Of a DNA stretch of 64,000 bases, positions 9,893 through 46,430 are shown one piece after another. The first letter of the stretch is position 1; every line of letters starts with the position of its first letter. The position numbers and the translations under genes were made by a program. This stretch comes from Fimbriimonadales bacterium (GTDB lineage: Bacteria; Armatimonadota; Fimbriimonadia; Fimbriimonadales; Fimbriimonadaceae): NCBI GenBank assembly GCA_026418055.1, contig JAOACB010000009.1, positions 1 to 64,000 of the forward strand, given 5' to 3'. The notes beneath the pieces were generated by a model, which did no database searches, was not told where the DNA came from, and saw only the letters and a program-made list of their open reading frames with translations.

Positions 9893-9899
9893 GCCAGCA

Positions 9900-12163: not shown

Positions 12164-12167
12164 GCTC

Positions 12168-13301: not shown

Positions 13302-13320
13302 GACGGGGTTGGCTCCGAGG

Positions 13321-13358
13321 AAAAGGAGCCCCCGGGCGCTGTCGGCATCCGGGGGCTC
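13321..13358 (-). terminator. Intra-operon terminator after the corrinoid protein gene
   Basis: On the minus strand GAGCCCCCGG and CCGGGGGCTC (arms 13349-13358 and 13326-13335) form a 10-bp stem with a 13-base loop, followed by CTTTTCC. It lies 25 bases after the corrinoid protein stop and 20 bases before the next start codon. Partial termination would make the corrinoid protein more abundant than its enzymes. Confidence 0.65.
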
Positions 13359-13382
13359 GAGGGTGGCTGGTTCGCGTTCCTC

Positions 13383-14012
13383 CTAGGACTTGACCAGCTG
13401 GCGCGCCACCTGCACGGCGGTGGCTGCGTCCGGCGCGTAGCCGTCCGCCCCGATGGACTGGGCGAACTCGGCGGTGATCGGAGCCCCGCCGATCATGACC
13501 TTGACGTTCGTGAGCCCGGCCGCCTTCAGGGCCTCTACCGTGGTCTTCATCGCGGGCATGGTGGTCGTGAGCAGCGCCGAGAGCCCGACGATGTGCGCGT
13601 TGTGCTCCTTGGCGGCCTGCGCGAAGCGCTCGGGCGACACGTTGGTTCCCAAGTCGATCACGTTGAAGTTGGCTCCCTTCCACATCATCGCCACCAGGTT
13701 CTTCCCGATGTCGTGGAGGTCGCCCTGCACGGTGCCGATCACGGCGGTGTACTCGGGTCGGATGCCGCTGGCGATGAGCACCGGCTCGAGCTTCGCCATG
13801 GCCTCCTTCATGGCGCGGGCGGCGATCAGCATCTCGGGCACGAACACCTCGTTGCGCTGGAACTTCCCGCCGATGTCGTCCATGCCGGCCACGAGAGCGT
13901 CGAGGATGAGCTTCGGGTCGACGCCCTCCTCCAGCGCCTCTTCGGTCAGCTGAGCGGCGATGTCCCGCTTGCCGTTCACGATGGAGTCGGAAAGGGCTTT
14001 CAAATCTGCCAT
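13383..14012 (-). CDS. Corrinoid (cobalamin-binding) methyltransferase carrier protein
   Basis: 209 residues. An N-terminal helical cap domain (B12-binding 2 type, about 1-85; MDDIGGKFQRNEVFVPEMLIA) is followed by a Rossmann-like cobalamin domain with GTVQGDLHDIGKNLVAMM, the D-x-H-x-x-G motif whose His is the lower cobalt ligand. SALLTTTMPAMKTTVEAL and MIGGAPITAEFAQSIGADGYA complete the signature. The protein resembles MtaC/MtbC/MttC carriers. It heads the methyl-transfer operon and has a clear Shine-Dalgarno (GAGGAG) before ATG 14012. Confidence 0.93.
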   Translation of the reverse strand: MADLKALSDSIVNGKRDIAAQLTEEALEEGVDPKLILDALVAGMDDIGGKFQRNEVFVPEMLIAARAMKEAMAKLEPVLIASGIRPEYTAVIGTVQGDLHDIGKNLVAMMWKGANFNVIDLGTNVSPERFAQAAKEHNAHIVGLSALLTTTMPAMKTTVEALKAAGLTNVKVMIGGAPITAEFAQSIGADGYAPDAATAVQVARQLVKS

Positions 14013-27834: not shown

Positions 27835-29004
27835 ATGGCGAGCGGCGGGAACTGGCGGAACATCCGGCTGATGGGATGGACGAGCTTCTTCGCCGACGTC
27901 AGCAGCGAGATGACCTATCCCGCCATCCCGCTGTTCCTGAAGAACACCCTGCAGGCGCCCGCCTCGGCCCTGGGGTGGACGGAGGGTCTGTCCCAGCTGA
28001 TCATCGGCGCCATGGCGTTCCTTTCTGGGCGGCGCAGCGACCGCACCGGTAGGCGCACCGGCTGGATCCGCCTGGGCTACCTGCTCGCCGCGCTCGGCAA
28101 GCCGCTGATGGCCCTCGCCCACGTGTGGACGGTGGTGCTGGGGGCCCGGGCCGTGGACCGCATCGGCAAGGGGTTGCGCACGTCCTCCCGCGACGCTCTG
28201 CTGGCCGATAGCGCGGGTCCCGGCGAGGCCGGAAAGGCGTTCGGTTTCCAGCGGGCGATGGACAACGCCGGGGCTCTCGTCGGCTCCGCCCTGGCGGTGC
28301 TGCTGATGGCGGCCCTGGCGGAGAACTACCGCGTCCTGTTCCTGATGGCGTTCGTTCCCGGCATGGTGGCCGTGGCCCTCACCCTCGGGCTGCGGGATCT
28401 GCCGCAGACGCCGCGGCAGGCTGAGGGAAGTGCCGTTCGGCTTCCGCGCTCCAAGCCGTTCTGGTGGTGCGTCGGCCTCGTGGCGTTCTTCGAGCTGGCC
28501 AACAGCAGCGACGCGTTCCTGATCCTGCGCGCCAACGATCTCGGGCTGGCTCCCGCCGCGAGCGCGGGGGCGTACCTCGTGTTCACGCTCGTGGCGGCGG
28601 CCTCCAGCTACAAGCTAGCCAGCCTGTCCGACCGCGTGGGCCGCGCGCCGCTCATCGTGGCCGGGTGGCTGGCCTACGCCGCCGTGTACCTCGGCATGGC
28701 TCTCGGATCGGCTTGGACGGTGTGGCCCCTGCTGGCCCTGTACGGCCTGTACTTCGGCGCGACCGATGGCGTCGCCAAGGCGCTGGTCCGAGACGCCTCC
28801 GAGCCTGAATTCAGGGGCCAGGCCATGGGGGTTCTGGCCCTGATCCGCGGAGTTGCGCTGTTCCTCGGCAATCTGCTGGCGGGCTGGCTCTGGGACGGCG
28901 TCGGCCACGCCGCTCCGTTCCTGTTCGGCGCGTCGGTGGCGGCTGCCGCCTCCCTGGCGATGCTGCTGGCCTGGAGAACCCGCCTGCTGCCGGCCTTGAG
29001 CTAG
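27835..29004 (+). CDS. Major facilitator superfamily transporter
   Basis: 389 residues with about 12 predicted membrane helices. SFFADVSSEMTYPAIPLFL, the GRRSDRTGRRTGWIR loop between helices 2 and 3 (the MFS signature) and GLRTSSRDALLADS are characteristic of a widespread MFS subgroup of unknown substrate. The divergent sugar isomerase-like gene suggests a sugar or related small molecule. It ends on a shared CTAG with the hemerythrin gene. Confidence 0.88.
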   Translation: MASGGNWRNIRLMGWTSFFADVSSEMTYPAIPLFLKNTLQAPASALGWTEGLSQLIIGAMAFLSGRRSDRTGRRTGWIRLGYLLAALGKPLMALAHVWTVVLGARAVDRIGKGLRTSSRDALLADSAGPGEAGKAFGFQRAMDNAGALVGSALAVLLMAALAENYRVLFLMAFVPGMVAVALTLGLRDLPQTPRQAEGSAVRLPRSKPFWWCVGLVAFFELANSSDAFLILRANDLGLAPAASAGAYLVFTLVAAASSYKLASLSDRVGRAPLIVAGWLAYAAVYLGMALGSAWTVWPLLALYGLYFGATDGVAKALVRDASEPEFRGQAMGVLALIRGVALFLGNLLAGWLWDGVGHAAPFLFGASVAAAASLAMLLAWRTRLLPALS

Positions 29005-29402: not shown

Positions 29403-29452
29403 ACCAGTCGCTTCGGCTGAGGATGCGCGAATCTTGACCGAGAAAGAGCAAT

Positions 29453-29472
29453 CTTCGGTGCGCTTCCCGAAG
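29453..29472 (+). promoter_or_regulatory. Candidate operator before the apiose operon
   Basis: CTTCGG, eight bases, CCGAAG form an inverted repeat directly upstream of TATCGT (29475-29480), a possible -10 box. It is the only clear dyad between the hemerythrin start and apnL. A LacI protein encoded at the end of the operon could bind here. Confidence 0.35.
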
Positions 29473-29500
29473 GGTATCGTTGACTCGGAGAGGTCCCGCG

Positions 29501-31015
29501 ATGCCGGATCCGATCGCGTTCCGCCAAGGCCACTGGTCGTTCGAAGTGGACCCGGGCACGGGTTTCATCCGCCGCGTGCGGTTCGGCAGGGAGACGCTCG
29601 CGCTCGCGGTGTACTGCGCCGTGCGGGGCACGGACTGGAGCACGCTGGGGTTCCGAGCCTCGGGTTACTCGGCAACCCCCGAGGGATGCTCGTGGACATC
29701 GGATGCGGTCGGAGCCCCGTTCCGCTGGACGACCACGGCGCGCTTGACCGAATCCGGCTTCGCGTACGCCGTCGAGGGTGAGGCGCTGGACGCTTTCGAA
29801 ACGTGCCGCACCGGCGTGTGCGTGCTGCATCCGATGGAGGTTGCCGGCTGTCCCGCCACGGCGGTGCACACCGACGGAACCACCGAGGACAAGCCGTTTC
29901 CCACGCACATCAGTCCGCACCAACCGTTCCTGGACCTCAAGGAGCTGCGCTATCGGGGTCGGCACGGCCATCGCGTGGAGATCGCCTTCGAGGGTGAGGT
30001 CTTCGAGATGGAGGACCAGCGAAACTGGTCCGACGCCTCCTTCAAGACGTACTGCCGGCCGCTCGGTTCGGGGAGGCCTTACCGTCTGGAGAAGGGTCAG
30101 AAGCTGCGCCACGTGGTGCGGATCCGTTGCGCCGGGGACCCCGCGATGGAGCAGATGCCGCACGGTCTGTTCGGCAAGCTCCCCCGACTGAGCGTTTGGC
30201 TCGACGGGTTGGCCGACCAGCAGCTCCCCGCCATCGCCGCCCTCGGCCAGCGGCGGGCCGCGACGTCGGACCCCAAGGCGGCCGGCCCGGCGAGGCGGGT
30301 CGGAGTCGGGCTCGACCTGCTGGTTCCGATCGGCTCCTGGGTCTCCGTGGCGGCGGTGCAGGCGCCGACGGAAGACTCGGTGCTTTGGCTGGTCTCGGAC
30401 GGCTGGAGTCCGGCCGCCGAGCAGGCGCTCTTGGCGGCGCGCAAAGCCTGGGGCGGACTCGGATGGCAGATCGGTTGCGCTACCAGCCAGAACTTCACCG
30501 AGCTCAATCGCTCCCGGCCGGTCGACTCGAAGGCCGATTGGGTGGGGTTCGCCGCCAGCCCGCAGGTGCACGCGTTCGACGACTGGTCGATCGTGGAGAA
30601 CGCCGCGACCTTCGCGCCGATCGGCGAGACGATCCGGGGCTTCGCAGGAGCCGCTCGGGTGGCGGCCATGCCCATCCGGTTCGAGTCTCCCTACCGGCCG
30701 CAGGATCCCCGCGCGGGAGGCAGCGTGGGGGCTCTGTACACGCTGCTCGCTCTCGCCGCGGCTTCGGTCGGACGCTTGGATGCCGTGGCGATCGGCAAGG
30801 CCTCTCAGCTCACGGACTCCGCGTCGCAGGCTGGGGAGGTTCTGCGCAACCTAGCGGCCAGCGGCGCGACGCAGGTCGAGTGGCGCCGCGCCGAAGGCAG
30901 CGAGACGATCGCCTTCAAGGGCGGCCGCACCGCGCTGCTCTGGAGGGTGAATCCCGAGCCTCGGGCCAGCCAGGGGCTCGGACGGTTCGGATACCGCTTG
31001 GAGCCGGGCCGATGA
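29501..31015 (+). CDS. apnL: D-apionate lactonase-like protein (ApnL family)
   Basis: 504 residues from ATG 29501, with Shine-Dalgarno GGAGAGG seven bases upstream. The pattern VCVLHPMEVAGCPATAVH, FPTHISPHQPFLDL and EMEDQRNWSDASFKTY matches, from memory, the ApnL family, whose N-terminal domain opens D-apionolactone and whose C-terminal half is a TIM-barrel-like domain. ApnL hydrolyses the product of D-apiose dehydrogenase to D-apionate. It is followed in ATGA overlap by a Gfo/Idh/MocA dehydrogenase, the family to which ApsD belongs. The order lactonase, dehydrogenase, oxidoisomerase, decarboxylase strongly supports the call, which still needs a profile search. Confidence 0.72.
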   Translation: MPDPIAFRQGHWSFEVDPGTGFIRRVRFGRETLALAVYCAVRGTDWSTLGFRASGYSATPEGCSWTSDAVGAPFRWTTTARLTESGFAYAVEGEALDAFETCRTGVCVLHPMEVAGCPATAVHTDGTTEDKPFPTHISPHQPFLDLKELRYRGRHGHRVEIAFEGEVFEMEDQRNWSDASFKTYCRPLGSGRPYRLEKGQKLRHVVRIRCAGDPAMEQMPHGLFGKLPRLSVWLDGLADQQLPAIAALGQRRAATSDPKAAGPARRVGVGLDLLVPIGSWVSVAAVQAPTEDSVLWLVSDGWSPAAEQALLAARKAWGGLGWQIGCATSQNFTELNRSRPVDSKADWVGFAASPQVHAFDDWSIVENAATFAPIGETIRGFAGAARVAAMPIRFESPYRPQDPRAGGSVGALYTLLALAAASVGRLDAVAIGKASQLTDSASQAGEVLRNLAASGATQVEWRRAEGSETIAFKGGRTALLWRVNPEPRASQGLGRFGYRLEPGR

Positions 31016-32028
31016 GGGTCGCGCTGACGGGATGCGGGTTCTGGTCGCGCTTCCAGCTCGCGGGCTGGCGCGAGGTTGGGGTGCCGGTGGTCGCCGTCCA
31101 CAGCCGCAACGAGCGGCGCGTGCGCGCCGCCGCCGAGGCCTTCGGCATCGGGCGCGCCTACACGGACTTGGACCGCATGATCGCCGAGGGAGGGTTCGAC
31201 GTGCTGGACGTCTGCAGCGACGTGCCGGGTCACCGTCCCGCGGTGGTGGCGGCGGCGAGGGCTGGCCTAGCCGTGATCTGCCAGAAGCCACTGGCGGACC
31301 GCGAAGACGAGGTGGAGGAGATGGCCGCGGTCTGCCGATCCACCGGCGTGTGGTGGGCGGTGCACGAGAACTGGCGCTTCCAGCGGCCGTTCCGCAGGAT
31401 CCGGGAGTGGCTCGATCGAGGGGCCGTTGGCCGCGTGTACCGGCTGCGCCTGAGCTTCCTGCAGTCGTTCGACGTGTTCGCGAATCAGCCGCAGCTGAGG
31501 AGCCAGCGGCGCTTCATCCTTATGGACCTGGGGACGCACCTCCTGGACACGGCGCGGTACCTGGGCGGAGAGGTCGATAGCCTTTTCTGCCTGACGGATC
31601 GGGTGCGTCCCGACATCGAGGGGGAGGACTCGGCCACCGTGCTGCTGCGCTTCGCCAGCGGGGCCCACGGCGTGGTGGAGATGACCTACGCTGGCCTGCG
31701 CGAACGGGACGAGTTCCCATCGACCTTCGCCCTGATCGAGGGGGAGAGCGGTTCGATCGAACTCGGGAGGGATTGCGAGCTCCGCCTGACCACGCGCGAC
31801 GGCACTGTCGTCGAGTCCGCGCGGCCGCCGCTGTATGCATGGGCCGATCCCGACTACGCGCTGGTGCACGCCAGCATCGTGGACTGCCTGCGGGACCTCC
31901 GCGACTCCTACGCGCAGGGCCGTCCGGCGGAGACGAGCGGCGAGGACAACCTGCGGACCCTGGGATTGGTGTTCGGTTGCTACGAGTCGGCCGAGACGGG
32001 CGAGGCCGTCCGGCCAAGGAGGTTCTGA
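31012..32028 (+). CDS. apsD: Gfo/Idh/MocA dehydrogenase, probable D-apiose dehydrogenase
   Basis: 338 residues. N-terminal Rossmann fold begins MRVALTGCGFWSRFQLAGW (G-x-G-x-x pattern), followed by CQKPLADREDEVEEM (the E/Q-K-P motif with the catalytic Lys) and VHENWRFQRPFRRIRE. GTHLLDTARYLGGEVDS carries the conserved His. ApsD oxidises D-apiose to D-apionolactone with NAD. The family includes many sugar and inositol dehydrogenases, so the specific call rests on the neighbours. The ATG overlaps the apnL stop (ATGA). Confidence 0.65.
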   Translation: MRVALTGCGFWSRFQLAGWREVGVPVVAVHSRNERRVRAAAEAFGIGRAYTDLDRMIAEGGFDVLDVCSDVPGHRPAVVAAARAGLAVICQKPLADREDEVEEMAAVCRSTGVWWAVHENWRFQRPFRRIREWLDRGAVGRVYRLRLSFLQSFDVFANQPQLRSQRRFILMDLGTHLLDTARYLGGEVDSLFCLTDRVRPDIEGEDSATVLLRFASGAHGVVEMTYAGLRERDEFPSTFALIEGESGSIELGRDCELRLTTRDGTVVESARPPLYAWADPDYALVHASIVDCLRDLRDSYAQGRPAETSGEDNLRTLGLVFGCYESAETGEAVRPRRF

Positions 32029-32035
32029 GAGAAGC

Positions 32036-32875
32036 ATGGCGAAGGTGGCGCTGTTCGGTGCGGGCGGCAAGATGGGTTGCCGCCTGACGGACAATCTGAT
32101 GCGATCGGAGTACGCGCTGGCTTGCGTCGAGCCTTCGGAGGCTGGCCGGCGCAACCTGGCCGACCGGGGCTTGGAGGCGGTGGCGCCCGACGCCGCGCTG
32201 CAGGACGCGGACTTTGTGATCCTCGCGGTTCCGGACGTGGCCCTGGAGCGCGTCTCGGCCGAGGTGGTGCCCGGCATGCGGCGCGGCTCCGTGCTGGTGA
32301 CGCTCGACCCTGCTGCCGCGCACGCCGGCGTGATCGCCCGGAGGGAAGGCGTGCCGCTGTTCGTCACGCACCCCTGCCACCCCCCTTTGTGGCGGGAGGA
32401 GAACGACCCAGAGGCGTTGCGCGACTTCTTCGGAGGGATTAAGGCGAGCCAGCCGATCGTCTGCGCGATCGAGGGTGGGTCCGATGAGGACTACGCGAGC
32501 GCGGAGCGGCTCGCCAGGACGATGTACGCGCCGGTGAGCAGGTCCCACCGCGTCACCGTCGAGCAGATGGCGATCCTTGAGCCGGCGATGGCGGAAACGG
32601 TCACCGCCTGCTGCTGCACGATCATCCGAGAGGCGATGGACGAGGCGATCCGCCGCGGCGTTCCCGAAGCCGCAGCCCGGGATTTCATGATGGGCCACGT
32701 GTCCATCCCGCTGGCGATCGTGTTCGGCGAGATCGGCTCGCCGTTCAGCGACGGCGCGAAGCGCATCATCGAATACGGCCGGAAGAGGCTGATTCAGCCG
32801 GACTGGAAGGCGCTGTTCGAGCCGGAGAGCGTGCTCGACCAAGTGCGCACGATCGTGCGGGGCGGAACGCCGTGA
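32036..32875 (+). CDS. apnO: Probable D-apionate oxidoisomerase (ApnO family)
   Basis: 279 residues. VALFGAGGKMGCRLTDNLM is an NAD-binding G-x-G-G-x-x-G start. FVTHPCHPPLWREEND, HRVTVEQMAILEPAMAETV and RGVPEAAARDFMMGHVSIPLAIVF match, as I recall it, the PGDH_C-type ApnO family. ApnO converts D-apionate to 3-oxo-isoapionate. Seven bases separate it from apsD and its stop overlaps the next start as GTGA. Confidence 0.75.
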   Translation: MAKVALFGAGGKMGCRLTDNLMRSEYALACVEPSEAGRRNLADRGLEAVAPDAALQDADFVILAVPDVALERVSAEVVPGMRRGSVLVTLDPAAAHAGVIARREGVPLFVTHPCHPPLWREENDPEALRDFFGGIKASQPIVCAIEGGSDEDYASAERLARTMYAPVSRSHRVTVEQMAILEPAMAETVTACCCTIIREAMDEAIRRGVPEAAARDFMMGHVSIPLAIVFGEIGSPFSDGAKRIIEYGRKRLIQPDWKALFEPESVLDQVRTIVRGGTP

Positions 32876-33693
32876 GGCTCGGCATAGGCTCCTACGCGGT
32901 TCCATGGACGATCGGCTGGGACGGCTGGTTGCCGGAGCGCCCTTTCGAGCCGGAGGATCTGCTCGATCTGGCGCTCGGCTTGGGAGCGGAGGTGGTGCAG
33001 TACTGCGACAACCTCCCGATCGACGACTGGGCGGACCGGCGGCCGGATCGCTTGGCGAGACTGAAGGATCGGGCCGCGGCTGCCGGGGTGGCTCTCGAGG
33101 TGGGCACCCGGGGGCTGGATCCCGATCGTCTCGAGAGCGCCTGCCGAACGGCCCGCGCCCTGGGTGCGCGCTTCGTGCGCGTGGTGGCGGACAGCGGCGA
33201 TTACCGTCCGGACTTGGCCACGCTCGCGCGGGACTTGGAGAGGGTGCGGCCCGCATTCGAGCGCCACGGCCTCGTGCTGGCCCTGGAGAACCACGACCGC
33301 TTTCTGGCCGAGGATCTGGCGGATAGGATGGAGCGGTCCGGGGGCTGGTTGCAGGCATGCTTCGACACCGCCAACTCGCTGGGATGCCTGCAGGGAACGT
33401 TCGAGGCGCTCGAGCCCCTGTTGCCGCACGTCGTCAGCCTGCACCTAAAGGATGTGGCGGCGACCAGGGTGCCGTACGGCTTGGGATTCCGCGTCGACGG
33501 AGCGCCGGCGGGGGAAGGGGCCGCCCGGTTGCGCGAGGTGTGCGACAGGGTGCGGTCGATCCGGCCCGACGCGACGGCGGTGCTGGAGCAATGGGTGCCG
33601 AAAGGCGCCGATCGGGAGCGGACGGCCGCGGCGGAGCTCGAATGGCTCCGACGCGGCTGGGAAACGGTCAGGTCATGGTTCGACCGGCCTTGA
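32872..33693 (+). CDS. oiaC: Probable 3-oxo-isoapionate decarboxylase (OiaC-like)
   Basis: 273 residues of the xylose-isomerase-like TIM-barrel superfamily, start GTG 32872. RLGIGSYAVPWTIGWDG, VVQYCDNLPIDDW, LEVGTRGLDPDRLES, ALENHDRFLAEDL, CFDTANSLGCLQGTFEAL and SLHLKDVAATRVPYGLGFRV agree with the OiaC type, which decarboxylates 3-oxo-isoapionate to L-erythrulose. The two His/Glu/Asp metal ligands (ENHD, DTANS, HLKD) are intact. Its last 26 bases overlap the convergent lacI gene. Confidence 0.72.
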   Translation: MRLGIGSYAVPWTIGWDGWLPERPFEPEDLLDLALGLGAEVVQYCDNLPIDDWADRRPDRLARLKDRAAAAGVALEVGTRGLDPDRLESACRTARALGARFVRVVADSGDYRPDLATLARDLERVRPAFERHGLVLALENHDRFLAEDLADRMERSGGWLQACFDTANSLGCLQGTFEALEPLLPHVVSLHLKDVAATRVPYGLGFRVDGAPAGEGAARLREVCDRVRSIRPDATAVLEQWVPKGADRERTAAAELEWLRRGWETVRSWFDRP

Positions 33694-34720
33694 CGGGAGC
33701 CGAGCGCGGCGGCGCGGTGCTTTGGCGCTGGATCAGTTGGACGGAGAACACGGTGTGAGCCTCGGGGCTCTCGCGGCACGTGGCGCGCTCTGCCAGGATC
33801 CTCGCGGCTTCGGCCCCCATCTCCTGCAACGGTTGCCGAAGGGTGGTGAGCGGCGGACGGGCCATCTGCGCGATGACGGTGTCGTCGGTTCCCACGAGCG
33901 AAACGTCCTCCGGCACGCGCACCCCCGCTGCGGCCAGGCGTTCGGCCACCCCGTAGGCGATCTCGTCGTTGGAGCAGATCCACCCCGTGGGGAGCTCCTC
34001 CGCCGGCAGGCGGAGCAACCAGTCCGCCATCTCCCGGCCGGATTCCCGAGCGAACACCCCGTCGACCACGATGGGGTCAGGCAGACCGAAGTCTCGGCAG
34101 TAGGCCCTCACGCCCTCGAGGCGCTCCAGGGAGCTGGACTTGTCGGCGACCCGGCCCACGTACGCCAGACGCTCATGTCCCAACCGCGAGAGGTGGTCGG
34201 CGGCCATCCTGCCGCATGCGATGTTGTCCACGTCCACGGTCGAGACCTTCTTGCCCTGGCTGGCGGAACCGATCACCACCACGGGAACTCCCCGCTCGAC
34301 GAGCTGGTTCAGGAGCAGGCTGTCCAGGCAGGGCGCCATGAGCGCGACGCCGTCGCAACGACCGTCGAACGCGTGCCGCACCTTCTGCACGCCGTCCAGC
34401 GACACGCGCTCGACGTCCACCGTCACGCTGTAGCCCAGCCTCCAGGCTGCCTCGAAGAAGCCGTCCAACAGCTTGGCGAAGTAGTTGTTGGACAGGATGG
34501 GGGAGGGCTCGAGCTCCTCGCAGATGAACGCGAGGTTCTTGCTTGGCGGCACTCCCTTGCGCGTTCGGTAGGGGGATGGGCGGTAGTTCAGTTGCCGGAT
34601 GGCCCTCATCACCTTCGCGCGCGTGGCGTCGGAAACGCGATCCCACCGCCCGTGCAGCACGTGGGACACCGTTGCGGTCGAAACGCCGCTCGCTTTGGCG
34701 ACATCCTTGAGGGTAGCCAT
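33668..34720 (-). CDS. LacI family regulator, likely controller of the apiose operon
   Basis: 350 residues. TLKDVAKASGVSTATVSHVLHGRWDRVSD is the canonical HTH, YRPSPYRTRKG the hinge, and NLAFICEELEPSPILSNNYF starts the sensor domain. VDVDNIACGRMAADHL and SLVGTDDTVIAQMARPPLTTLRQP are typical of the family. Convergent overlap with oiaC suggests, but does not prove, a link to apiose. SD GGAGG lies before ATG 34720, within a hairpin. Confidence 0.88.
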   Translation of the reverse strand: MATLKDVAKASGVSTATVSHVLHGRWDRVSDATRAKVMRAIRQLNYRPSPYRTRKGVPPSKNLAFICEELEPSPILSNNYFAKLLDGFFEAAWRLGYSVTVDVERVSLDGVQKVRHAFDGRCDGVALMAPCLDSLLLNQLVERGVPVVVIGSASQGKKVSTVDVDNIACGRMAADHLSRLGHERLAYVGRVADKSSSLERLEGVRAYCRDFGLPDPIVVDGVFARESGREMADWLLRLPAEELPTGWICSNDEIAYGVAERLAAAGVRVPEDVSLVGTDDTVIAQMARPPLTTLRQPLQEMGAEAARILAERATCRESPEAHTVFSVQLIQRQSTAPPRSAPVKAGRTMT

Positions 34721-36760: not shown

Positions 36761-38656
36761 ATGGCGGCGGTTCGCCGTGCGGCGCCCTATCTGATCCTCC
36801 TGCTCGCCGCGCTCCTGCCCGTGGGGCGCGCGGTGTTCGGGGCCGAAGCGGTTGGGGCGTTCGACCAGATTCGGCAGATGCCGCCTTGGAACGGCCCGAA
36901 GCCGAAGCAGGCTTGGGACATCCTGCAGGCCGACTCCGTGCTGCAGTTCTACGTGTGGCGCAAGCTGGTCATCGAGGACGGCCTCACTTGGGTGAACCCT
37001 TACAGCTTCGGGGGGTCGCCTCTGGCCGCGAACTCTCAGTCTGCGGTGTGGTATCCGCCCCACGTGCAGCTGCGGCTCGTGCGCATGCGCGCCGATGACG
37101 CCGTGGATCTGCTGGCTTGGTTCCACCTGTTCGTTCTCGGAGCCGGGGTTTATGCTCTGTGCAAGGTCGCGGGAGCGGCCTCCTGGCCCGCGCTGGCTTC
37201 TGCTCTGGGCGTTCAGCTGTCGCCGTTCGCCTTGGCGTGGCTGGGCTTGGCGAGCGTGCCGACCACCGTGGCGTGGATCCCGTGGCTGCTGACCGCCACG
37301 GTGCTCTGCCTGCGGGGCCGGCCTTGGGCTTGGTTTGCGGTGGCGGCGTCCGGCGGGCTGCTGCTTACCGCTGGCCACCTGCAGTTCGCCGCCTACGGTC
37401 TGCTGGCCTCGATCGCTGTCGCGCTGCATGGACTCTGGGAGTCGCGCTCTTGGAGGGGCTTGGCGGCGTGGGCCGTCGGAGGGGCGTTGGCGGCGGCCCT
37501 CGCGTGGGTGCACCTCGGCCCGGTGCTCGCCCTGTCTGGGGAGTCGCACCGGCAAGGCCCTGCCACCGAAGAAGGGTACGCCGCCTACGTCGGTGGAGCG
37601 ATCCGGCCGCACGAGCTGGTCGGCAGGCTCGCTTCCCCCTTCGCGCAGGGCAACCCTTTGGTCGAGCCAGACGGCCTCCCCACGGAGTACCTGCCGGCCA
37701 TCACTCGGCCAGGGGCCAACTACGCCGAGTCCGCCTCCACGATCGGGCCCCTGCTGCTCGTGGGAGCTCTTGCGGCCCTTGCGGGCCCGCGCCGTCGGCA
37801 GGCCATCCTTTGGTGGGGCGTCGCCCTTCTGGCGGCCCTGCTGGCCGTCGGCACTCCTTTGAACCGGTTGCTCTACTTCGGATTGCCCGGATGGTCGGCG
37901 AGCGGCTCTCCGGGGCGAGTCGTGGTGTTGATGCTCTTGGCGCTCGCCGTCGCGGCGGCTCTGGGCTTCAGCCCGCAAGCCGCGTCCAAGGGCGGCGATC
38001 GCGCCAGGGTCGCCGCCATCGCCGCGGCGTTTCTGGTGATGGCGGTCGGCGTCGTGTGGGGAGAGGAACCCTACCCGGCGGGGCTGCCCGACAGCCACCC
38101 GGCCGAGGTGGTCTGGATGGAGGTGTTCCGGCGCAACGGGGCCATGGTGCTGCTGTGGGGATTCGCCGCGCTCCTCGTGGCTCCCGTCGTCTGGGAGAGG
38201 CCGCGGCTCGGATGGCTGCTGGCGGCGTTCTCCGTCGCCTTTCCAGTGGCTACGGGGGTCACCGCGCTGGTGCGGACCGGAGACCCGAGCTTCCTGAGGG
38301 AGAGGATCGAGGGGGTCGGCCCGAGCGACCTTGTGGCGATCGTCAACGAGCACTGGACCTTCGTCGGGGCCCCGCGCGCGCTGATGCCTCCCAACACCGC
38401 CGCCGCCGCGGGCATCCGAGAGCTGGGCGGATACGACTCGCTGATGCGGCGCGCCGTCAAGGCCGAGCTGGACGCCATCAACGGCCGGGACTCCAGCCCA
38501 CCCGCGAACGGCAACATCGCGTTCGTCCAGCCCACGGCGGACCCCGACCGGCTGCGTCGGGCGGGCGTTACGCAGGTCTGGAGTCTGCGCGCCCTGCCGC
38601 CGTCCTTCGGACCGGGCGAAAGGCACCCCAGAGGCTTCTGGGTCTACCGGCTATAG
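36761..38656 (+). CDS. YfhO-like polytopic membrane protein
   Basis: 631 residues with about 12 predicted hydrophobic segments, then a long C-terminal soluble part. N-terminal [37 protein letters not shown], followed by [23 protein letters not shown], resembles the YfhO/GT-C-related membrane proteins of many bacteria. These may be involved in glycosylation of surface polymers or lipids; the family is not biochemically settled. The end overlaps the convergent E1 gene by six bases. Start fixed by TATCAT. Confidence 0.7.
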
Positions 38657-41122
38657 TCCGGCCCGGCTCCTCGCCATCCAATCCGCCACGCCGCACGCAC
38701 GCTTGGGGCGATAGCCCGGCAGCGGCTTGAGGTGCGTGTGGATGGCGTCGAGGATGTCCGATGGGAACGGGAAGAAAGCGTCCTCCAGCTCGTCGGGCGG
38801 CGTGATCCAGTTGCGGGCACCGACCACGGTGGGAGGAGCGTCCAGCTCGTCGAACGCGAACTGCGCGATCTTCGAGGCCATGGTGTGCAGCACGCTGCCT
38901 CGCTCGCACGCGTCGCTGGCCAGCAGGATCTTGCGCGTCTTGCGCACCGACTCCAGAACCGGCTCGTAGTCGAACGGCACGATCGACCGGGCGTCGATCA
39001 CCTCGGCGGACACCCCGAACTCGCTCTCGAGCCGCTCGGCGGCCTCCAGCGCCCTGTAGAGGGTCGCTCCCACGGTGAGGATCGTGACGTCCCTGCCCGG
39101 CCGCTTCACGTCGGGCAGGCCGAAGGGGATCTCGTACCATCCCTCCGGAACGCCGCCCGGGTGGAACAGCTCGGGCATGTCGTAGATCCGTTGGCTCTCG
39201 AAGAACACCACCGGGTCCGTTCCCACCAGCGCCGAGGCCATCAGGCCCTTGGCGTCGTAGGGGGTGGCCGGGAACGCCACCTTCAGACCGGGCACGTGCG
39301 CCACCATCGCCGACCAGTCCTGGCTGTGCTGGGCCCCGTACTTGCTTCCCACGCTGACCCGCAGCACCACCGGCATCCTCAGCAGGCCGCCGCTCATGCT
39401 CTGCCACTTGGCCAGCTGGTTGAAGATCTCGTCGCCGGCCCTCCCCATGAAGTCGCAGTACATCAGCTCGACGAGCGCCCGGCCGCCCTCCAGCGCGTAG
39501 CCCACGGCCGAGCCGACGATCGCTCCCTCGCTGATGGGCGTGTTGAAGAGGCGGTGGTATGGAAGCGCCTCCGTCAGGCCTCGGTACACCGCGAACGCGC
39601 CTCCCCAGTCGCGGTTTTCCTCGCCATAGGCGATGAGCGTCGGATCCTTCCGGAAGGCTTCGTAGATCGCCTCGAAGAGCGCGTCGCGCAGCGCCACGCA
39701 CTTGGCCTTGGACAGCGGCTTGCCGTCGGGGCCGATTCCGCTGCGGCTCTTGGCCGCGATCTGGCGGACCCGAGGGTTCTCCTCCGGCGTCCCGATCAGC
39801 TCCGGCTGGCGCCCGGGCTCGAGCGACTCCGCCCGCCCGTTCGAGAGCATCGTGCGGTCCAGCAGGCAGCCCTCGCCCATGAGGTCCGCACGCGGCGAGA
39901 TCTCGAGATCGATCGCCTTGCGGTAGCAGCGCAAGACCACCGCGTCGATCTGCTGGCGGATCGCCTCCAGCTCCCCCTCGGTGGCGATGCCCGCGCGCAC
40001 GAGGTCGTCGGCGTAGGTCTTCAGCGAATCCACCTGCTGCCAGGCCTCGATCTCCGAACGGTCGCGGTAGGACGAGGCGTCCGAGGGCGAGTGGCCGCTG
40101 AAGCGGTAGGTGAGGGTGTCGAGCAGCACGGGCCCGTCTCCTTCGGCGAGCACGCGCTTCTTGCGCTCGAAGGCGTCCGCCACCGCGAGCGGGTTGTAGC
40201 CGTCCACCCGCTCGGCGTGGAGGTTGTTCGGTGCGAGGCCGGCGCCGAGGCGCGCGAGCACCTTGAAGCCCATCGTCTCCCCGACCGGTTGCCCTCCCAT
40301 GCCGTAGAAGTTGTCGACGAAGTTCACGATCAGCGGCAGGCCGCGCCGGTAGGCCTCGTCCCACAGCTCCTTGTACTGATCCATCGTGGCAAGGCACAGG
40401 CCCTCCCACACCGGGCCGCAGGCCGACGAGGCGTCGCCGATGTTGCAGACCACGATGCCCTTGCGTCGGTTCACGTGCTTGAACAGCGCCGCGCCGACCG
40501 AGATGTCTCCCGAGCCACCCACGATCGCGTTGTTCGGATAGATCCCGAACGGGGGGAAGAACGCGTGCATCGAGCCTCCCATGCCCCGGTTGAACCCGGC
40601 CTCCCTGCCGAAGATCTCGGCCAGCGATCCGTACACCAGGTAGTCGACCGCCAGCTCCTTCACCGAGCCGTGAGAGCCGTCGTCCACCACCCTCAGGGTC
40701 GCGCCGTCCATGTAGCCGCGGAAGATCGCCATCAGCTCCTCGTCCGGCAGCTGATGGATCGCGGCGAGGCCCTTGGCCAGGATCTCGCCGTGGCTGCGGT
40801 GGCTTCCGTAGATGTGGTCCTCCACGTCCAGGGCGAAGGCTTGTCCGACCGCGGCGGCCTCCTGGCCGATCGAGAGGTGCGCGGGTCCCCGATGCTCGTA
40901 GGCGATTCCCTGGTACGCCCCCTTCAGCTTCACCTCGCTGAGCATCGATTCGAACGCGCGGATCAGCGCCATGTCGCGGTAGATGCGCTTGAGCGCCTCT
41001 GGCCCTCTGCGGGCCGCCTCCTCGTCGATCGACCGGTCGTACTGGTTGAGCGGGATCGGTCGGATCTCGAGCTGGCCTCTGCGTCGGACTTCTTCGGGTC
41101 GGATGGGAACGCTCTTGGGCAT
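38651..41122 (-). CDS. Fused 2-oxoacid dehydrogenase E1 (alpha-beta) component
   Basis: 823 residues. Residues about 40-385 are an E1-alpha domain ([49 protein letters not shown] with the TPP GD(A/G)...DN motif, and [15 protein letters not shown]). Residues about 470-810 are an E1-beta domain ([57 protein letters not shown]). The alpha and beta chains are usually separate, as in branched-chain and pyruvate dehydrogenases. With the E2 encoded across the divergent promoter it would make acyl-CoA from a 2-oxo acid. It follows deoR with a nine-base gap and an AGAGGAAA ribosome-binding site. Confidence 0.85.
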
Positions 41123-41131
41123 GGTTTCCTC

Positions 41132-41908
41132 TCAGGACGGGTTCGGCTCGGGGCAGACGAGGTCGATGCCGCGGGCGGCCAGAGCCTCGCGCCAGGCCGG
41201 GTCGGGCGGAAGGTCCGTGACGATGCGCGACACCGCCTCCAGGTCGGCGATGCGGAACAGCGAGGGAGCCTGAAATTTCGTGTGGTCGACCAGCAGCACG
41301 GCGTCGCGGGCGTTCTTGATCACGTGCTGGTAGAGGTAGGCGGTGTGGATGTCGGTGGCGGAGATGCCGAACTCCAGGCTCAGCCCGTCGGCTCCCAGAA
41401 ACGCGGTGTAGCCCCGCAGCTGGTCGATGGCGTTGGCGGCGAGCGGGCCGACGAAGTCCATCCGCTCCGGCCGATAATGGCCGCCGATCTGGATCAGCGT
41501 GATCTCGGGGCTGGATCCGAGCTCCAGAGCCAGGCGGGTCGAGTTGACGATCACGGTCAGGTTGGACCGCCGCTTCAGCTCCGGGCACATCTCGAAGCAG
41601 GTGCTTCCCGAGTCCACGTAGATCATGTCGCCATCGGCCACCAGACCGGCCGCCAGCTGGCCGATCGCGCGCTTGGCGGCGGCGTTCTGGTTGGACCTGG
41701 ACGCGACGGACTCCTCGATGGACCGTCGGATGGTGGCTCCGCCGTACACCAGGTCGATCAGACGGCTGTCGGCCAGCGCCCTCAGGTCCCGGCGCACCGT
41801 GGCCTCCGAGACGTCCAGCTCTGCGGCCAGGTCCTTCACGGCCGCATGGCCGCGGGCCCGGATCGCCTCCAGGATGGCGTCGCGCCGCGTGCGTGGCGCC
41901 ACGCTCAC
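41132..41908 (-). CDS. DeoR family sugar-catabolism regulator
   Basis: 258 residues. RRDAILEAIRARGHAAVKDLAAELDVSEATVRRDLRAL is the DeoR N-terminal HTH. The C-terminal DeoRC sensor has VYVDSGSTCFEMCPEL and TIVNSTRLALEL, and DADGLSLEFG-like residues, a fold that binds sugar phosphates. GTG 41908 follows GAGGAGG at 4 bases, GTG 41902 at 10 bases; longer forms from upstream ATG codons are possible. It heads the operon with the E1 gene. Confidence 0.88.
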   Translation of the reverse strand: MSVAPRTRRDAILEAIRARGHAAVKDLAAELDVSEATVRRDLRALADSRLIDLVYGGATIRRSIEESVASRSNQNAAAKRAIGQLAAGLVADGDMIYVDSGSTCFEMCPELKRRSNLTVIVNSTRLALELGSSPEITLIQIGGHYRPERMDFVGPLAANAIDQLRGYTAFLGADGLSLEFGISATDIHTAYLYQHVIKNARDAVLLVDHTKFQAPSLFRIADLEAVSRIVTDLPPDPAWREALAARGIDLVCPEPNPS

Positions 41909-41968
41909 CGCGCCTCCTCGTGGCGGACTTCGATCAAAGGATGACGAAGCTCGATCATCTCTTGGCTT

Positions 41969-42026
41969 CATTGTGACATATTCCGTCCAGATTGCGTTCG
42001 GTTCTCGACGAAGTTGTGTCACAATG
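41969..42026. promoter_or_regulatory. Paired dyad operators between divergent operons
   Basis: Left: CATTGTGACATA (41969-41980), containing TTGTG-A-CATAT. Right: TGTGTCACAATG (42015-42026), containing a perfect TTGTG-T-CACAA palindrome at 42014-42024. The two sites are also inverted copies of each other (TGTCACAATG). Placement between deoR and E2 fits DeoR binding and looping. Confidence 0.6.
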
Positions 42027-42047
42027 TTGGCGAGTGCCGAGGCCGCC

Positions 42048-43295
42048 ATGTCGAGCGAAGCGCATCCCCAGGTCGTTCCCATCCTGCTTCCCCAAGCCGG
42101 CAACACGATGGAGGAGGGCACGATCCTCCAGTGGCGCGTGCGGCCCGGCGACCGCGTGAAGGTCGGCCAGGTGCTCTTCGAGCTGGAGACGGACAAGGCC
42201 ACGATCGAGGTCGAGGCGGAGGCGGAGGGCAGGATCGCCAGGATTCTCGTCGGGGAAGGGCAGGCGGCCCCCGTCAAGTCGGTCGTGGCCCTTCTGGCTG
42301 AGGACGACGAGGCCGCCGAGCGCTACCTGCAGTCCGGCTCGCCAGCGCCGGTCGCGTCGGCCGCGGAGCCCTCGGCGCCCGCCGGAGAGCCCGCCGCGGC
42401 GCCGATGGGGGCGGTCGCGGCTCCGCAGCCCGGTCGGAGGAGGGCGTCTCCGGCGGCGCGCGCGGCGGCCGCCGCTCTGGGGGTGGACCTCGGCGCGCTG
42501 CCCCAGGGCAGCGGCCCGGGCGGGCGGATCCTGCGCGAGGACGTCGAGCGGGCGGCGGCCGCCCGAGCGACCCCGCAGGCGGCGCCCTTGCCCGAGGGGC
42601 TCCCGGGGGAGCAGCCCGCGCCGAGCCCCGTCGCCGGAGAGCGGCACCCGCTGAGCCGCATGCGCAAGGCGATCGCCAGGAACCTGGCCGCGAGCAAGCA
42701 GCAGCTGCCTCACTGGTACCTCCGGACGACGATCGTCGCCGACAGGCTGGTCGAATTCCACCAAAGCCAGAAGGCGCGGTTCCCCTGCTCGCTCAACGAC
42801 GTGGTGGTGCTGGCGGTGGCCCGTGCGATCCAAGAGATGCCCGCGTTCCGGAGCCGCCTGGAGGGCGACGAGGTGGTGACGTTCGACTCGGTGAACATCG
42901 GCATCGCCGTGGCGGTCGAGGAGGGTCTGGTGGTGCCGGTGGTGCGCGGAGCGGACCGCCTGAATCTGAAGGGTCTGGCGGCCGAGAGCCGGCGGGTGGT
43001 CGAGGCGGCACGGCAGGGAAGGCTGGAGGGAGTCGGCGAGGGCGTGTTCACCGTGAGCAACCTCGGCATGTTCGGCGTGGAGGAGTTCGCGGCGATCATC
43101 AACCCGCCGGAGGTGGGCATCCTTGCGGTGGGGTCCGTGCACGAGGATGTCGTCGTTCAGGACGGCGCGCTCCGCATCGGCAAGAGGATGACGATGACCC
43201 TGAGCGCGGACCATCGGCTGATCGACGGTGTGCAGGGAGCGCGGTTCATGGCCCGCGTCCGCGAGCTGCTGGAGGACCCCTCGTCGTGGGTCTGA
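42048..43295 (+). CDS. 2-Oxoacid dehydrogenase E2 (dihydrolipoyl acyltransferase)
   Basis: 415 residues from ATG 42048 (in-frame ATG 42024 would add eight). Lipoyl domain about 10-95 with ELETDKATIEVEAE carrying the lipoyl Lys; an Ala/Pro linker; a peripheral subunit-binding domain (about 130-165; ASPAARAAAAALGVDLGAL); and the catalytic domain ending with TLSADHRLIDGVQGARF, whose His and Asp are the active site. It accepts acyl groups from E1 and passes them to CoA. No E3 gene is close by, so a housekeeping one is presumed. Confidence 0.9.
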   Translation: MSSEAHPQVVPILLPQAGNTMEEGTILQWRVRPGDRVKVGQVLFELETDKATIEVEAEAEGRIARILVGEGQAAPVKSVVALLAEDDEAAERYLQSGSPAPVASAAEPSAPAGEPAAAPMGAVAAPQPGRRRASPAARAAAAALGVDLGALPQGSGPGGRILREDVERAAAARATPQAAPLPEGLPGEQPAPSPVAGERHPLSRMRKAIARNLAASKQQLPHWYLRTTIVADRLVEFHQSQKARFPCSLNDVVVLAVARAIQEMPAFRSRLEGDEVVTFDSVNIGIAVAVEEGLVVPVVRGADRLNLKGLAAESRRVVEAARQGRLEGVGEGVFTVSNLGMFGVEEFAAIINPPEVGILAVGSVHEDVVVQDGALRIGKRMTMTLSADHRLIDGVQGARFMARVRELLEDPSSWV

Positions 43296-44494
43296 GGCGT
43301 CTTCTGGCCGAGGCGTCGGCAGCGGTGGAAGGTCGGTGGGATCCGGAGCCGCGGCCCCACAACGCGCACATCCATCTGCCGCCGAACTTTTCGGCCTTCG
43401 ATTCCGTGGAGGACGCGGTCGAGCAGGCTCGGTCGGAGGGTGCCGCTCTGCTGGGTGCGGCCAACTACTACGACTACTCGGTCTTCGAGCGGTTCGCGAG
43501 CCTGTGCCTCGAGGCGGGGGTGTTTCCGCTGGTCGGCACCGAGATCCTGACCTGGATGGAGGACTGCGCCGAACGGGGGTGGCTGGTCAACGACCCGGGC
43601 AACCCCGGCAAGGCTTATCTGTGCGGCAAGGCGCTGGCGCTGTGCGCGGAGCCCACGCCGTGGGCGGCCTCCAAGCTGGGCGAGATCCGAGAGGGCGATG
43701 CGCGCCGGATGGAGCGCATGGTGGAGCTCGTCGGCGAGCATCTTCGGGGCAGGGGAATCGCGCTCTCCCTAGGGGCGGAAGAGGTGCGGGCGCGGGTCGC
43801 GCAACGGCACAGGACGCCTCTGGATACGGTGGTGCTGCAGGAGAGGCACCTGGCCATGGCGCTGGCCGAGAGGCTCGCCTCGCCGGAGCATGAGGAGGGT
43901 CTCGCCGTGCTGATGGCAGGGGATCCGCCAGCGGACCCGGTCGCCCTGCAGAACGAGCTGCGCAACCGCCTGCTCAAAGCCGGAAGGCCGGCTTACGTGG
44001 ATGAGCGGTTCGTGCCGTTCGACGAGGCGGCGAGGCTCATCCGGGAGCTGGGCGGGGTTCCCTGCTATCCTGCGATCATGGACGGCATCCCGGGAGGTCC
44101 GTCTCCGTTCGAGGACGCGCCCGAAGAGCTGGCGCGCAGGCTGGTGGAGAGGGGAATCCCCGCGATCGAGTTCATTCCGAACCGCAACGATCCTGCGGTG
44201 CTCGAGGAGTACGCCCTGGCGGCCCGCGCGGCGGGCTTGGTCGCGACCGCCGGCACCGAGCACAACACGCTCGGGAGCCAGCCGATCGTGCCGCGCTGCA
44301 AGGGAGGGCTCCCGATTCCTCGCCGGGCGGCGGAGATCTTCTGGGAGGGCGCCTGCGTGATGGCGGGCCACCAGCTGGCCGTGGCGCGGGGCGAACCGGG
44401 CTTCGAGGAGGCTCCGGGGACCGTCGAAGAGAGGATCGCAGCGTTCCGGGCCGTGGGTTGCGCCGCGATCCTGGAGGTGACCGGCCGTGCCTGA
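43286..44494 (+). CDS. PHP-domain metal-dependent hydrolase-like protein
   Basis: 402 residues, GTG start overlapping the E2 stop by 10 bases. PHNAHIHLPPNFSAFDS is a PHP motif with clustered His residues, VFPLVGTEILTW, GGVPCYPAIMDG and TAGTEHNTLGSQPIVP fit further metal-binding strands. PHP proteins hydrolyse phosphoesters or related bonds with divalent metal clusters. The internal region (about 120-250) is longer than in histidinol-phosphatase types and has no recognisable partner. Its position between E2 and the aldolase suggests a step of the same sugar pathway. Confidence 0.75.
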   Translation: MGLRRLLAEASAAVEGRWDPEPRPHNAHIHLPPNFSAFDSVEDAVEQARSEGAALLGAANYYDYSVFERFASLCLEAGVFPLVGTEILTWMEDCAERGWLVNDPGNPGKAYLCGKALALCAEPTPWAASKLGEIREGDARRMERMVELVGEHLRGRGIALSLGAEEVRARVAQRHRTPLDTVVLQERHLAMALAERLASPEHEEGLAVLMAGDPPADPVALQNELRNRLLKAGRPAYVDERFVPFDEAARLIRELGGVPCYPAIMDGIPGGPSPFEDAPEELARRLVERGIPAIEFIPNRNDPAVLEEYALAARAAGLVATAGTEHNTLGSQPIVPRCKGGLPIPRRAAEIFWEGACVMAGHQLAVARGEPGFEEAPGTVEERIAAFRAVGCAAILEVTGRA

Positions 44495-46430
44495 CCTGGG
44501 CGAACTGATCCGGCTTTCCCGCCGCTACGGGTCCGACAAGGACTTCGTGATCGCGGGTGGCGGGAACACGTCCTTCAAAGTCGAAGGCCGGATGTGGGTG
44601 AAGGCCAGCGGCGTGGCCCTCGCGGAGATCGACGAGTCGGGCTTCGTCGAAATGGACTTGGCGGCCCTTCGGGCCATCGTGGAGAGCGACTTGGGTGGCG
44701 ATCCCGAGGAGCGCGAGCTGCGGTTCAAGGAGGCGATCTACGCCGCCAGGCTTCGTCCCGAGCTGGGTCAGCGGCCCTCCGTCGAGTGCGCGGTGCACGC
44801 GCTGTTCCCGCACGCCTACGTGGTGCACACCCACGCGACCTACGCGAACATGCTTTCGTGCTGCGTGCAGGGCGAGCGTCTGTGCCGAGAGCTGCTCGGA
44901 CCCGAGGTCGTGTGGGTGCCGTACACCGATCCGGGGTTCCTCTTGGCAAAATCGATCGCCGAAAGGCTGCAGGGCGCCGATGCCTCCAGGCCCGTGGCGA
45001 TGCTGTGGCAGAACCACGGCTTCGTCGTGGCCGCCGAGCGGCCGGACGAGATCGCCGAGGTCACCGAGCGGGTGCTCGCGCGGGTGCGCGCGCTCGTGCC
45101 CTCCACGCCGGCCGGAGGCGAGCCGCCGAGCGACGAGCTGCTGGAGCGCCTGTTGCCGAGCCTGAGGGGCGCGATGCTGGCCAGGGGCTGGGCGAGCGTG
45201 CTGCGCTGTCGCACAGCGGGTCCGGGCCGCGCGTTCGCCGACCACCCCGAGGCCCAGCGGCTCGCCTCCCTCGGGCCGCTCATCCCCGACCAAATCGTGT
45301 ACTGCAAGTCGTTCCCGCTGTGGCTGGGGATGGACGAGGATCCGGGCCCTGCGCTGGACGCCCACCTCGCCGAGACCGGCTATCCGCCGAAGATCGTGCT
45401 GGTGCCGGGCGTCGGCCTTCTCGCGGCGGCGCCGAGCGCCAAGGAGGCCGACGCGGCGGCGGACATGTACGAGGACGCGGTCCGGGTTGCGCTGGGTGCG
45501 GAGGCATTGGGAGGAGTCGCGCCGCTCTCCCAGCGCGACCGGGAGTTCATCGACGCCTGGGAAGTCGAGCAGTACCGGCGCCAGGTGGCCGCCGCGGGCA
45601 CGCCGGGTCGTTTTGCCGGCAAGGTGGCCGTGGTCACGGGGGCGGCGCAGGGCTTCGGCAAGGGCTTGGCGGAGAGGCTCGCGGCCGACGGCGCGCATGT
45701 GGCGCTTTGGGACGTGGCGGAGGAACAGGCGCAGGCCGTTGCCGAGGAGCTGAACCGATGCTGCGGCCCGGGCCGGGCGCTGGCGCTGCGGGCCGACGTC
45801 TCGGACCCGGCGTCCGTTCGCGAGGCGATGCTGGGGACGCTGGTGGCGTTCGGTGGGATCGACCTGTTCGTCGCGAACGCGGGCATCCTCAGGGCGGGCA
45901 GCGTCAAGGAGCAGCCTCACGAGGAGTTCGAACGCGTGACGCGGGTGAACTACATCGGGTTCTTCCTGTGCGCCCAAGCGGCCGCCCGGGCCATGGCGTC
46001 GCAGAACGCGCGGAACCCCGGCGCCTGGACGGACATCGTGCAGATCAACTCCAAGTCCGGGTTGCAGGGCTCCAACCGGAACGGAGCGTATGCCGGAGGC
46101 AAGTTCGGCGCGATCGGCCTCGTGCAGTCCTTCGCGATGGAGCTCCTCGCGGACAGGATCAAGGTCAACGCCGTGTGTCCCGGCAACTTCTTCGACGGTC
46201 CGCTCTGGTCCGACCCGCAGAACGGGCTGTTCGTTCAGTACCTGCGGGCCGGCAAGGTGCCCGGCGCTCAGACCACCGAGGATGTGCGGCGCTTCTACGA
46301 GGCCAAGGTGCCCATGGGGCGCGGCTGCGGGGTCGACGACGTGTACCGCGCCCTGGTGTACGTGGTCGAACAACAGTACGAGACCGGCCAGGCCGTTCCC
46401 GTCACCGGCGGCCAGGTGATGCTCCACTAG
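44487..46430 (+). CDS. Class II aldolase / short-chain dehydrogenase fusion
   Basis: 647 residues. Residues about 1-390 are a class II aldolase/RhaD-like domain with VIAGGGNTSFKV, VHALFPHAYVVHTHATYANM (zinc His residues) and LWQNHGFVVAA. Residues about 395-647 are an SDR dehydrogenase: VVTGAAQGFGKGLAERLA (T-G-x-x-x-G-x-G), VANAGIL and INSKSGLQGSNRNGAYAGGK (S-Y-K triad). Annotated relatives are called rhamnulose-1-phosphate aldolase/dehydrogenase and turn a sugar phosphate into DHAP and lactate; here no isomerase or kinase gene follows. The GTG overlaps the previous stop. Confidence 0.87.
   Translation: MPDLGELIRLSRRYGSDKDFVIAGGGNTSFKVEGRMWVKASGVALAEIDESGFVEMDLAALRAIVESDLGGDPEERELRFKEAIYAARLRPELGQRPSVECAVHALFPHAYVVHTHATYANMLSCCVQGERLCRELLGPEVVWVPYTDPGFLLAKSIAERLQGADASRPVAMLWQNHGFVVAAERPDEIAEVTERVLARVRALVPSTPAGGEPPSDELLERLLPSLRGAMLARGWASVLRCRTAGPGRAFADHPEAQRLASLGPLIPDQIVYCKSFPLWLGMDEDPGPALDAHLAETGYPPKIVLVPGVGLLAAAPSAKEADAAADMYEDAVRVALGAEALGGVAPLSQRDREFIDAWEVEQYRRQVAAAGTPGRFAGKVAVVTGAAQGFGKGLAERLAADGAHVALWDVAEEQAQAVAEELNRCCGPGRALALRADVSDPASVREAMLGTLVAFGGIDLFVANAGILRAGSVKEQPHEEFERVTRVNYIGFFLCAQAAARAMASQNARNPGAWTDIVQINSKSGLQGSNRNGAYAGGKFGAIGLVQSFAMELLADRIKVNAVCPGNFFDGPLWSDPQNGLFVQYLRAGKVPGAQTTEDVRRFYEAKVPMGRGCGVDDVYRALVYVVEQQYETGQAVPVTGGQVMLH

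Follow-up and report, generated by a model that had tools for sequence, protein, structure and literature searches.

A four-gene cluster predicted to encode the upper oxidative D-apiose pathway in a Fimbriimonadaceae bacterium of the phylum Armatimonadota

Which substrate does a compact group of four genes serve in a member of the order Fimbriimonadales, and what becomes of its product? The stretch analysed here (the window) comprises positions 1 to 64,000 of contig JAOACB010000009.1 (assembly GCA_026418055.1); the host genome, a 2.89-Mb draft that is 97% complete, belongs to the family Fimbriimonadaceae (Armatimonadota). Four tightly coupled genes, apnL-like, apsD-like, apnO, and oiaC-like, occupy positions 29501 to 33693 on the forward strand (Table 1). 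Very probably, they constitute one operon for the upper part of the oxidative D-apiose pathway, leading to L-erythrulose and CO2. An earlier note, based on a reading of the sequence, had proposed this conversion via D-apionolactone, D-apionate, and 3-oxo-isoapionate, and the comparisons reported here support it.

Gene coupling and predicted enzymes

The apnL-like and apsD-like genes overlap in the sequence ATGA, and apnO and the oiaC-like gene overlap in GTGA, whereas apsD and apnO are separated by a 7-base gap. The oiaC-like gene and the lacI-family gene overlap tail to tail by 26 bases. The layout is thus the one that the earlier note had described, and all of the motifs quoted in it were found in the proteins. 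Two congeneric genomes, Armatimonadetes UBA8783 and an uncultured Fimbriimonadaceae bin, preserve the order and coupling of the four genes (69% to 84% identity) with lacI converging on oiaC, and the arrangement is therefore not due to chance. One of these genomes is represented by a single locus (L020) and the other by two contigs (L021 and L097).

In the pathway that we infer, from catalytic steps and substrates to regulation and uptake, GH140-type apiosidases, whose genes lie outside the operon (one of these genes is within the window), would free apiose from plant material. ApsD would then convert D-apiose to D-apionolactone with NAD+, the ApnL-like protein would hydrolyze the lactone to D-apionate, ApnO would oxidize D-apionate and shift its hydroxymethyl group to give 3-oxo-isoapionate, and OiaC would remove CO2 to yield L-erythrulose. 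The convergent LacI protein would serve as the operon repressor.

On sequence grounds, the assignments of ApsD and ApnO are strong. The predicted ApsD has one dominant match among the Protein Data Bank (PDB) chains, 5uhw (E value, 5e-71; 243 bits, versus 82 bits for the next chain), which has reportedly itself been assayed as ApsD. This chain is a near-match (562 bits) of the apsD product of the Shinella plasmid cluster. Residues K92 (in QKP) and H176 (in GTH), the catalytic lysine and histidine of the Gfo/Idh/MocA family, were invariant in 46 sequences. Similarly, ApnO has a single dominant PDB match, 5t57 (E value, 1.7e-84; 287 bits), which closely matches ApnO encoded in a Cupriavidus cluster (562 bits). 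ApnO contains the PF16896 domain (E value, 1.8e-60) in addition to a Rossmann domain, is ~50% identical to ApnO of Rhizobiaceae, and has HPxHP and LEP motifs that were invariant in 72 sequences. Both dominant matches agree with the identities originally suggested for these two proteins.

The product of the first gene is predicted to be a compact, divergent relative of ApnL. Its sole NCBIfam match is the ApnL model NF049900 (E value, 9.8e-49; 166 bits; residues 15 to 212), to which a congeneric copy scores 163 bits. The ApnL of the Shinella cluster reaches 813 bits, above the curated cut-off of 750 bits, and since the score of the window protein is far below this cut-off, we call the protein ApnL-like and not ApnL. 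It is shorter than most relatives in the alignment (~580 to 660 amino acids), but residues E169, E171 to W176, D178, K182, Y184, H357, and D360 are invariant in it and in 21 relatives. Its structural model (predicted local distance difference test score [pLDDT], 92.7) shows an N-terminal beta-sandwich followed by a barrel, and the best overall Foldseek matches of the model were GH97 and GH36 glycosidases, with low TM-scores. The original identification as ApnL is supported by the exclusive family match, the conserved residues, and the operon linkage, but not by the profile score. ApnL homologues at loci L023, L024, L025, and L027, in genomes of the same family, stand without apnO or a close apsD; the ApnL family is therefore wider than apiose catabolism.

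Profile searches with all four proteins had been suggested as a check. In NCBIfam, the ApnL-like protein matched only the ApnL model, below the cut-off, and the best model for the dehydrogenase was that of inositol 2-dehydrogenase, also below the cut-off. NCBIfam has no model that scores the reference ApsD, ApnO, and OiaC proteins above its cut-off, and its silence on the window proteins is therefore uninformative.

In the OiaC-like protein, residues E139, D165, H191, and E239 are invariant and located at the metal-ligand positions of the TIM-barrel fold (pLDDT of the model, 96). Its proposed identity as OiaC is supported by the constant link of such genes to apnO. In the OiaC tree, the window sequence forms a group with those of its two congeners, which is joined next by four other loci from a related group of Armatimonadota (SH-aLRT support of 100 for both groupings). 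No RuBisCO-like protein was found in the host genome, and the alternative route through OiaX and OiaK was rejected for this host. Elsewhere, alphaproteobacterial OiaC-like genes (L015, L016, L017, and L019) stand with split transketolase genes, short-chain dehydrogenase/reductase (SDR) genes, and a TRAP transporter rather than with apnO. Some of these clusters also hold a DhaK-type kinase; they appear to represent a different pathway.

A search of the host genome for PF13204 gave four matches, of which two were strong. A gene in the window accounts for one of these two; it lies 27 kb from the operon on the same contig, and the earlier note did not mention it. The best solved relative of its product is 8t9w, named Apiosidase, and the putative catalytic pair, the aspartate of GGD and the glutamate of GEP, is conserved between this product, 8t9w, and 5msy/3kzs. 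The enzyme would release apiose from plant glycans. Of 26 apnO-bearing genomes checked, 24 have GH140-type (PF13204) genes, and all 5 family members without apnO lack them (Fisher P = 1.2e-4), in a small comparison set chosen from the search list. Near the apiosidase gene are a prepilin-like gene (3520 to 4245, reverse strand) and a second LacI-family gene (4242 to 5327, reverse strand).

Table 1. Features of the predicted D-apiose locus in the window
Feature	Position	Strand	Description
apnL-like gene	29501-31015	+	ATG start, 504 aa, compact D-apionolactonase-like protein
apsD-like gene	31012-32028	+	338 aa, predicted D-apiose 1-dehydrogenase, Gfo/Idh/MocA family
apnO	32036-32875	+	279 aa, predicted D-apionate oxidoisomerase
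oiaC-like gene	32872-33693	+	GTG start, 273 aa, predicted 3-oxo-isoapionate decarboxylase, PF01261 TIM barrel
lacI-family regulator gene	33668-34720	-	350 aa, convergent with the operon; PF00356 and PF13377
Intergenic region, presumed promoter/operator	29403-29500		98 bases between a divergent hemerythrin-like gene and apnL; by position only
GH140-type apiosidase gene	920-2182	-	PF13204, E value 4.4e-87; PDB 8t9w, E value 1.8e-61

Distribution and comparison with known clusters

ApnO was identified in 34 of 291 Armatimonadota genomes (24 genera). Among the apnO loci of this phylum, 21 have oiaC, 6 have oiaX and/or oiaK, and none has both, so that each cluster with a recognisable decarboxylation branch carries one or the other, as expected of alternative decarboxylation routes. 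Six of the loci have an adjacent GH140-type apiosidase gene. In another six, a PF04909 amidohydrolase-family gene lies between apnO and apsD, at the place of apnL (L080, 9740 to 10516; L081, 9844 to 10590; L082, 12059 to 12880; and L091 to L093), and is a candidate for an alternative apionolactonase replacing ApnL. In one related genus of the phylum, five loci carry apnL-apnO-oiaC but lack a nearby apsD.

A scan of genome contigs with the OiaC alignment yielded at least 80 loci in at least 13 named phyla, including Chloroflexota, Bacteroidota, Verrucomicrobiota, Actinomycetota, Acidobacteriota, Planctomycetota, Bacillota, and one archaeal phylum. At 67 of the 80 listed loci, ApnO is encoded no more than 10 kb from OiaC; among all 80, 40 group with ApsD, 39 with ApnL, 15 with an apiosidase, and 18 with a ribose-type ABC transporter. 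The pathway thus occurs widely, and finding it in Armatimonadota is nothing unusual for the family. The expectation that the present set would broaden the known range was hardly borne out: the locus carries the upper half of an already known pathway in a phylum where it is common. Archaeal apnO genes were seen on a Haloarcula plasmid, with genes for a RuBisCO-like protein and a four-carbon acid sugar kinase nearby (L031), and in a Bathyarchaeota locus, adjoining oiaC (L168).

Carter et al. reportedly described oxidative D-apiose pathways, including an OiaC branch, in 2018. The cluster resembles that branch in having ApsD-, ApnL-, ApnO-, and OiaC-type proteins in one operon and L-erythrulose as the expected product. 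However, a LerK-type Dak1 kinase is missing from the host genome, which has a single triose-phosphate isomerase (TPI), the ApnL-like protein is compact and divergent, and a LacI-family regulator gene is present at the locus. On Pantoea and Erwinia plasmids, genes for a DhaK-type kinase, a TPI, a TIM-barrel protein (OiaC), and ApnO stand in a row with rpiB nearby, an arrangement that matches the OiaC branch reportedly described by Carter et al. There, too, oiaC adjoins apnO; unlike the host operon, this D-apionate-type cluster has a major facilitator superfamily (MFS) gene as well as the kinase and TPI genes, with rpiB nearby, and apsD and apnL are absent from the stretch viewed.

The clusters of Rhizobiaceae and Roseobacteraceae, namely, those of Shinella (L014), Salipiger (L032, with OiaK), and strain LCG007, are related to the host operon at ~39% to 41% (apsD), 29% (apnL), and 47% to 50% (apnO) identity. 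They use the phosphorylated RuBisCO-like route (oiaK and oiaX) and have a ribose-type ABC transporter; in Shinella, the order is apnO, the transporter, apsD, apnL, nanR, oiaX, and oiaK. In contrast, the host operon has oiaC in place of oiaK and oiaX and no transporter. D-Apiose supports growth as the sole carbon source of the Rhodobacteraceae strain LCG007, which has the ApnL/ApsD/ApnO/OiaK/OiaX set (PMC11747546). As for the GH140 apiosidases (8t9w and the BT1012-type 5msy), the window gene is alike in family and in the putative catalytic residues but sits away from the operon.

Alternative readings and the fate of L-erythrulose

Several observations weigh against an apiose operon of the kind proposed above. 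The score of the ApnL-like protein falls well short of the NF049900 cut-off (166 versus 750 bits), and in some genomes of the family, ApnL homologues have no apn genes in their vicinity. The nearest solved folds of the OiaC-like protein are sugar epimerases and isomerases, the protein is only 31% identical to Pantoea OiaC, whose own function is a prediction, and oiaC coexists with oiaX and oiaK at 6 of the 80 listed loci, all in other phyla. The operon has no transporter gene. In addition, two enzymes expected to act on the product were not found. None of the 26 apnO-bearing Armatimonadota genomes checked, the host included, has a LerK-type Dak1 kinase (the search was positive for the controls Escherichia coli, Lactococcus lactis, and Haloferax volcanii). 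A second TPI-like isomerase (LerI) was likewise not found, with one TPI in each of three genomes checked.

Conceivably, the operon serves apiose but its TIM-barrel protein, instead of decarboxylating 3-oxo-isoapionate, isomerizes or epimerizes that compound or a later intermediate; we regard this as unlikely. The nearest folds, D-tagatose 3-epimerase, L-xylulose-5-phosphate 3-epimerase, and similar enzymes, agree with such a role, as do the alphaproteobacterial plasmid relatives that adjoin transketolase halves, SDR genes, and TRAP genes and not apnO; at the six listed loci with all three genes, oiaC would be redundant if OiaC is a decarboxylase. However, no Armatimonadota locus has both OiaC and OiaX/OiaK, which argues that OiaC takes their place, and in a host with no RuBisCO-like protein the pathway would halt at 3-oxo-isoapionate if there were no decarboxylase. 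Furthermore, a relative in Paracoccus, Salipiger, and Marivivens adjoins a dihydroxyacetone-kinase-type gene, fitting ketose production. Strict exclusivity of OiaC and OiaX, which holds in Armatimonadota, had to be abandoned elsewhere, and OiaC may not always be the sole decarboxylase.

Whether apiose is the true input can also be asked. The loci that have apnL-apnO-oiaC and no nearby apsD, together with those in which apnL is replaced by an amidohydrolase-family gene, would suit an operon for D-apionolactone, D-apionate, or another branched sugar (e.g., hamamelose), with apiose as a minor substrate. This is improbable, given that a single PDB chain dominates the matches of the operon's ApsD, that this chain closely matches the reference ApsD, and that apiosidase genes co-occur with apnO. 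Still less credible, to the point of being negligible, is a generic sugar-acid or inositol operon with a superficial likeness to apiose genes: inositol 2-dehydrogenase is indeed the best NCBIfam model for the dehydrogenase, but the outcome is no different for the reference Shinella ApsD, which is below the cut-off as well, and the recurrence of all four genes together with apiosidases in unrelated phyla already contradicts it. An inositol, rhamnose, or hamamelose operon was rejected on the basis of the dominant PDB matches and the apiosidase linkage.

The preferred reading, an upper D-apiose pathway ending at L-erythrulose, leaves the lower part of the pathway to be accounted for. In the OiaC branch, L-erythrulose is converted to D-erythrose 4-phosphate by the kinase LerK (Dak1 family), the TPI-like isomerase LerI, and the RpiB-like EryI. 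The earlier note had stated that the L-erythrulose kinase gene is not in the window; LerK was searched for elsewhere in the host genome, and with no Dak1 homologue genome-wide, its absence is not a window-edge effect. One RpiB homologue is present in each of the three genomes and could be a housekeeping enzyme.

In Actinomycetota, Bacillota (Shouchella), and one betaproteobacterium, a ribulokinase-like FGGY kinase gene and an AraD-like gene flank apnO-oiaC (loci L185, L187, L196, L203, L205, and L208). This pair could provide a kinase-plus-epimerase route for L-erythrulose in place of LerK and LerI. The three FGGY kinases of the host resemble a xylulokinase, a rhamnulokinase, and a ribulokinase. 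The ribulokinase-like protein shares ~40% identity with the kinases that flank apnO-oiaC elsewhere, whereas the AraD-like protein of the host is only 28% to 29% identical to its counterparts there, and the link of the host pair to the pathway is therefore weak; both homologues are also unlinked to the operon. We tentatively suggest, as a possibility somewhat short of an even chance, that Armatimonadota use L-erythrulose via an undescribed lower pathway replacing LerK and LerI, possibly composed of a ribulokinase-like FGGY kinase, an AraD-like class II epimerase, and an RpiB isomerase.

Regulation, neighbouring genes, and significance

The lacI gene also neighbours the operon in the two congeneric genomes (77% to 78% identity). 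A by-eye search for an operator upstream of apnL and lacI revealed no palindrome conserved in these genomes. Of the proposal that the operon has its own LacI regulator, the conserved convergent gene thus stands, while control is suggested by gene position; LacI probably represses the operon. Upstream, an MFS gene (27838 to 29004, forward strand) is separated from the operon by the divergent hemerythrin-like gene.

Elsewhere in the window, two adjacent genes (43286 to 46430, forward strand) resemble those of L-rhamnose catabolism, the first being isomerase-like and the second encoding a 647-amino-acid protein, whose class II aldolase domain (44502 to 45071) is the only confirmed part of the pair; a DeoR-like gene lies nearby (41132 to 42277, reverse strand). 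A cluster at 7741 to 14012 (reverse strand) resembles genes for uroporphyrinogen-decarboxylase-type methyltransferases, a homocysteine methyltransferase, a CobW-like protein, and a corrinoid protein and is possibly a demethylation system. The gene at 38651 to 41122 (reverse strand) encodes an 823-amino-acid protein that, by eye, resembles a fused pyruvate dehydrogenase E1 alpha/beta.

RG-II, a pectic domain of the plant cell wall, contains apiose. The data indicate that the oxidative breakdown of apiose via OiaC is common among uncultured phyla of soil and water, in many of which apiosidase genes are placed beside the catabolic genes. The analysis also points to two candidate gene replacements, an amidohydrolase-family gene for apnL and an FGGY kinase with an AraD-like epimerase for LerK and LerI, and it exposes one concrete missing step, namely, what uses L-erythrulose in organisms without the known kinase.

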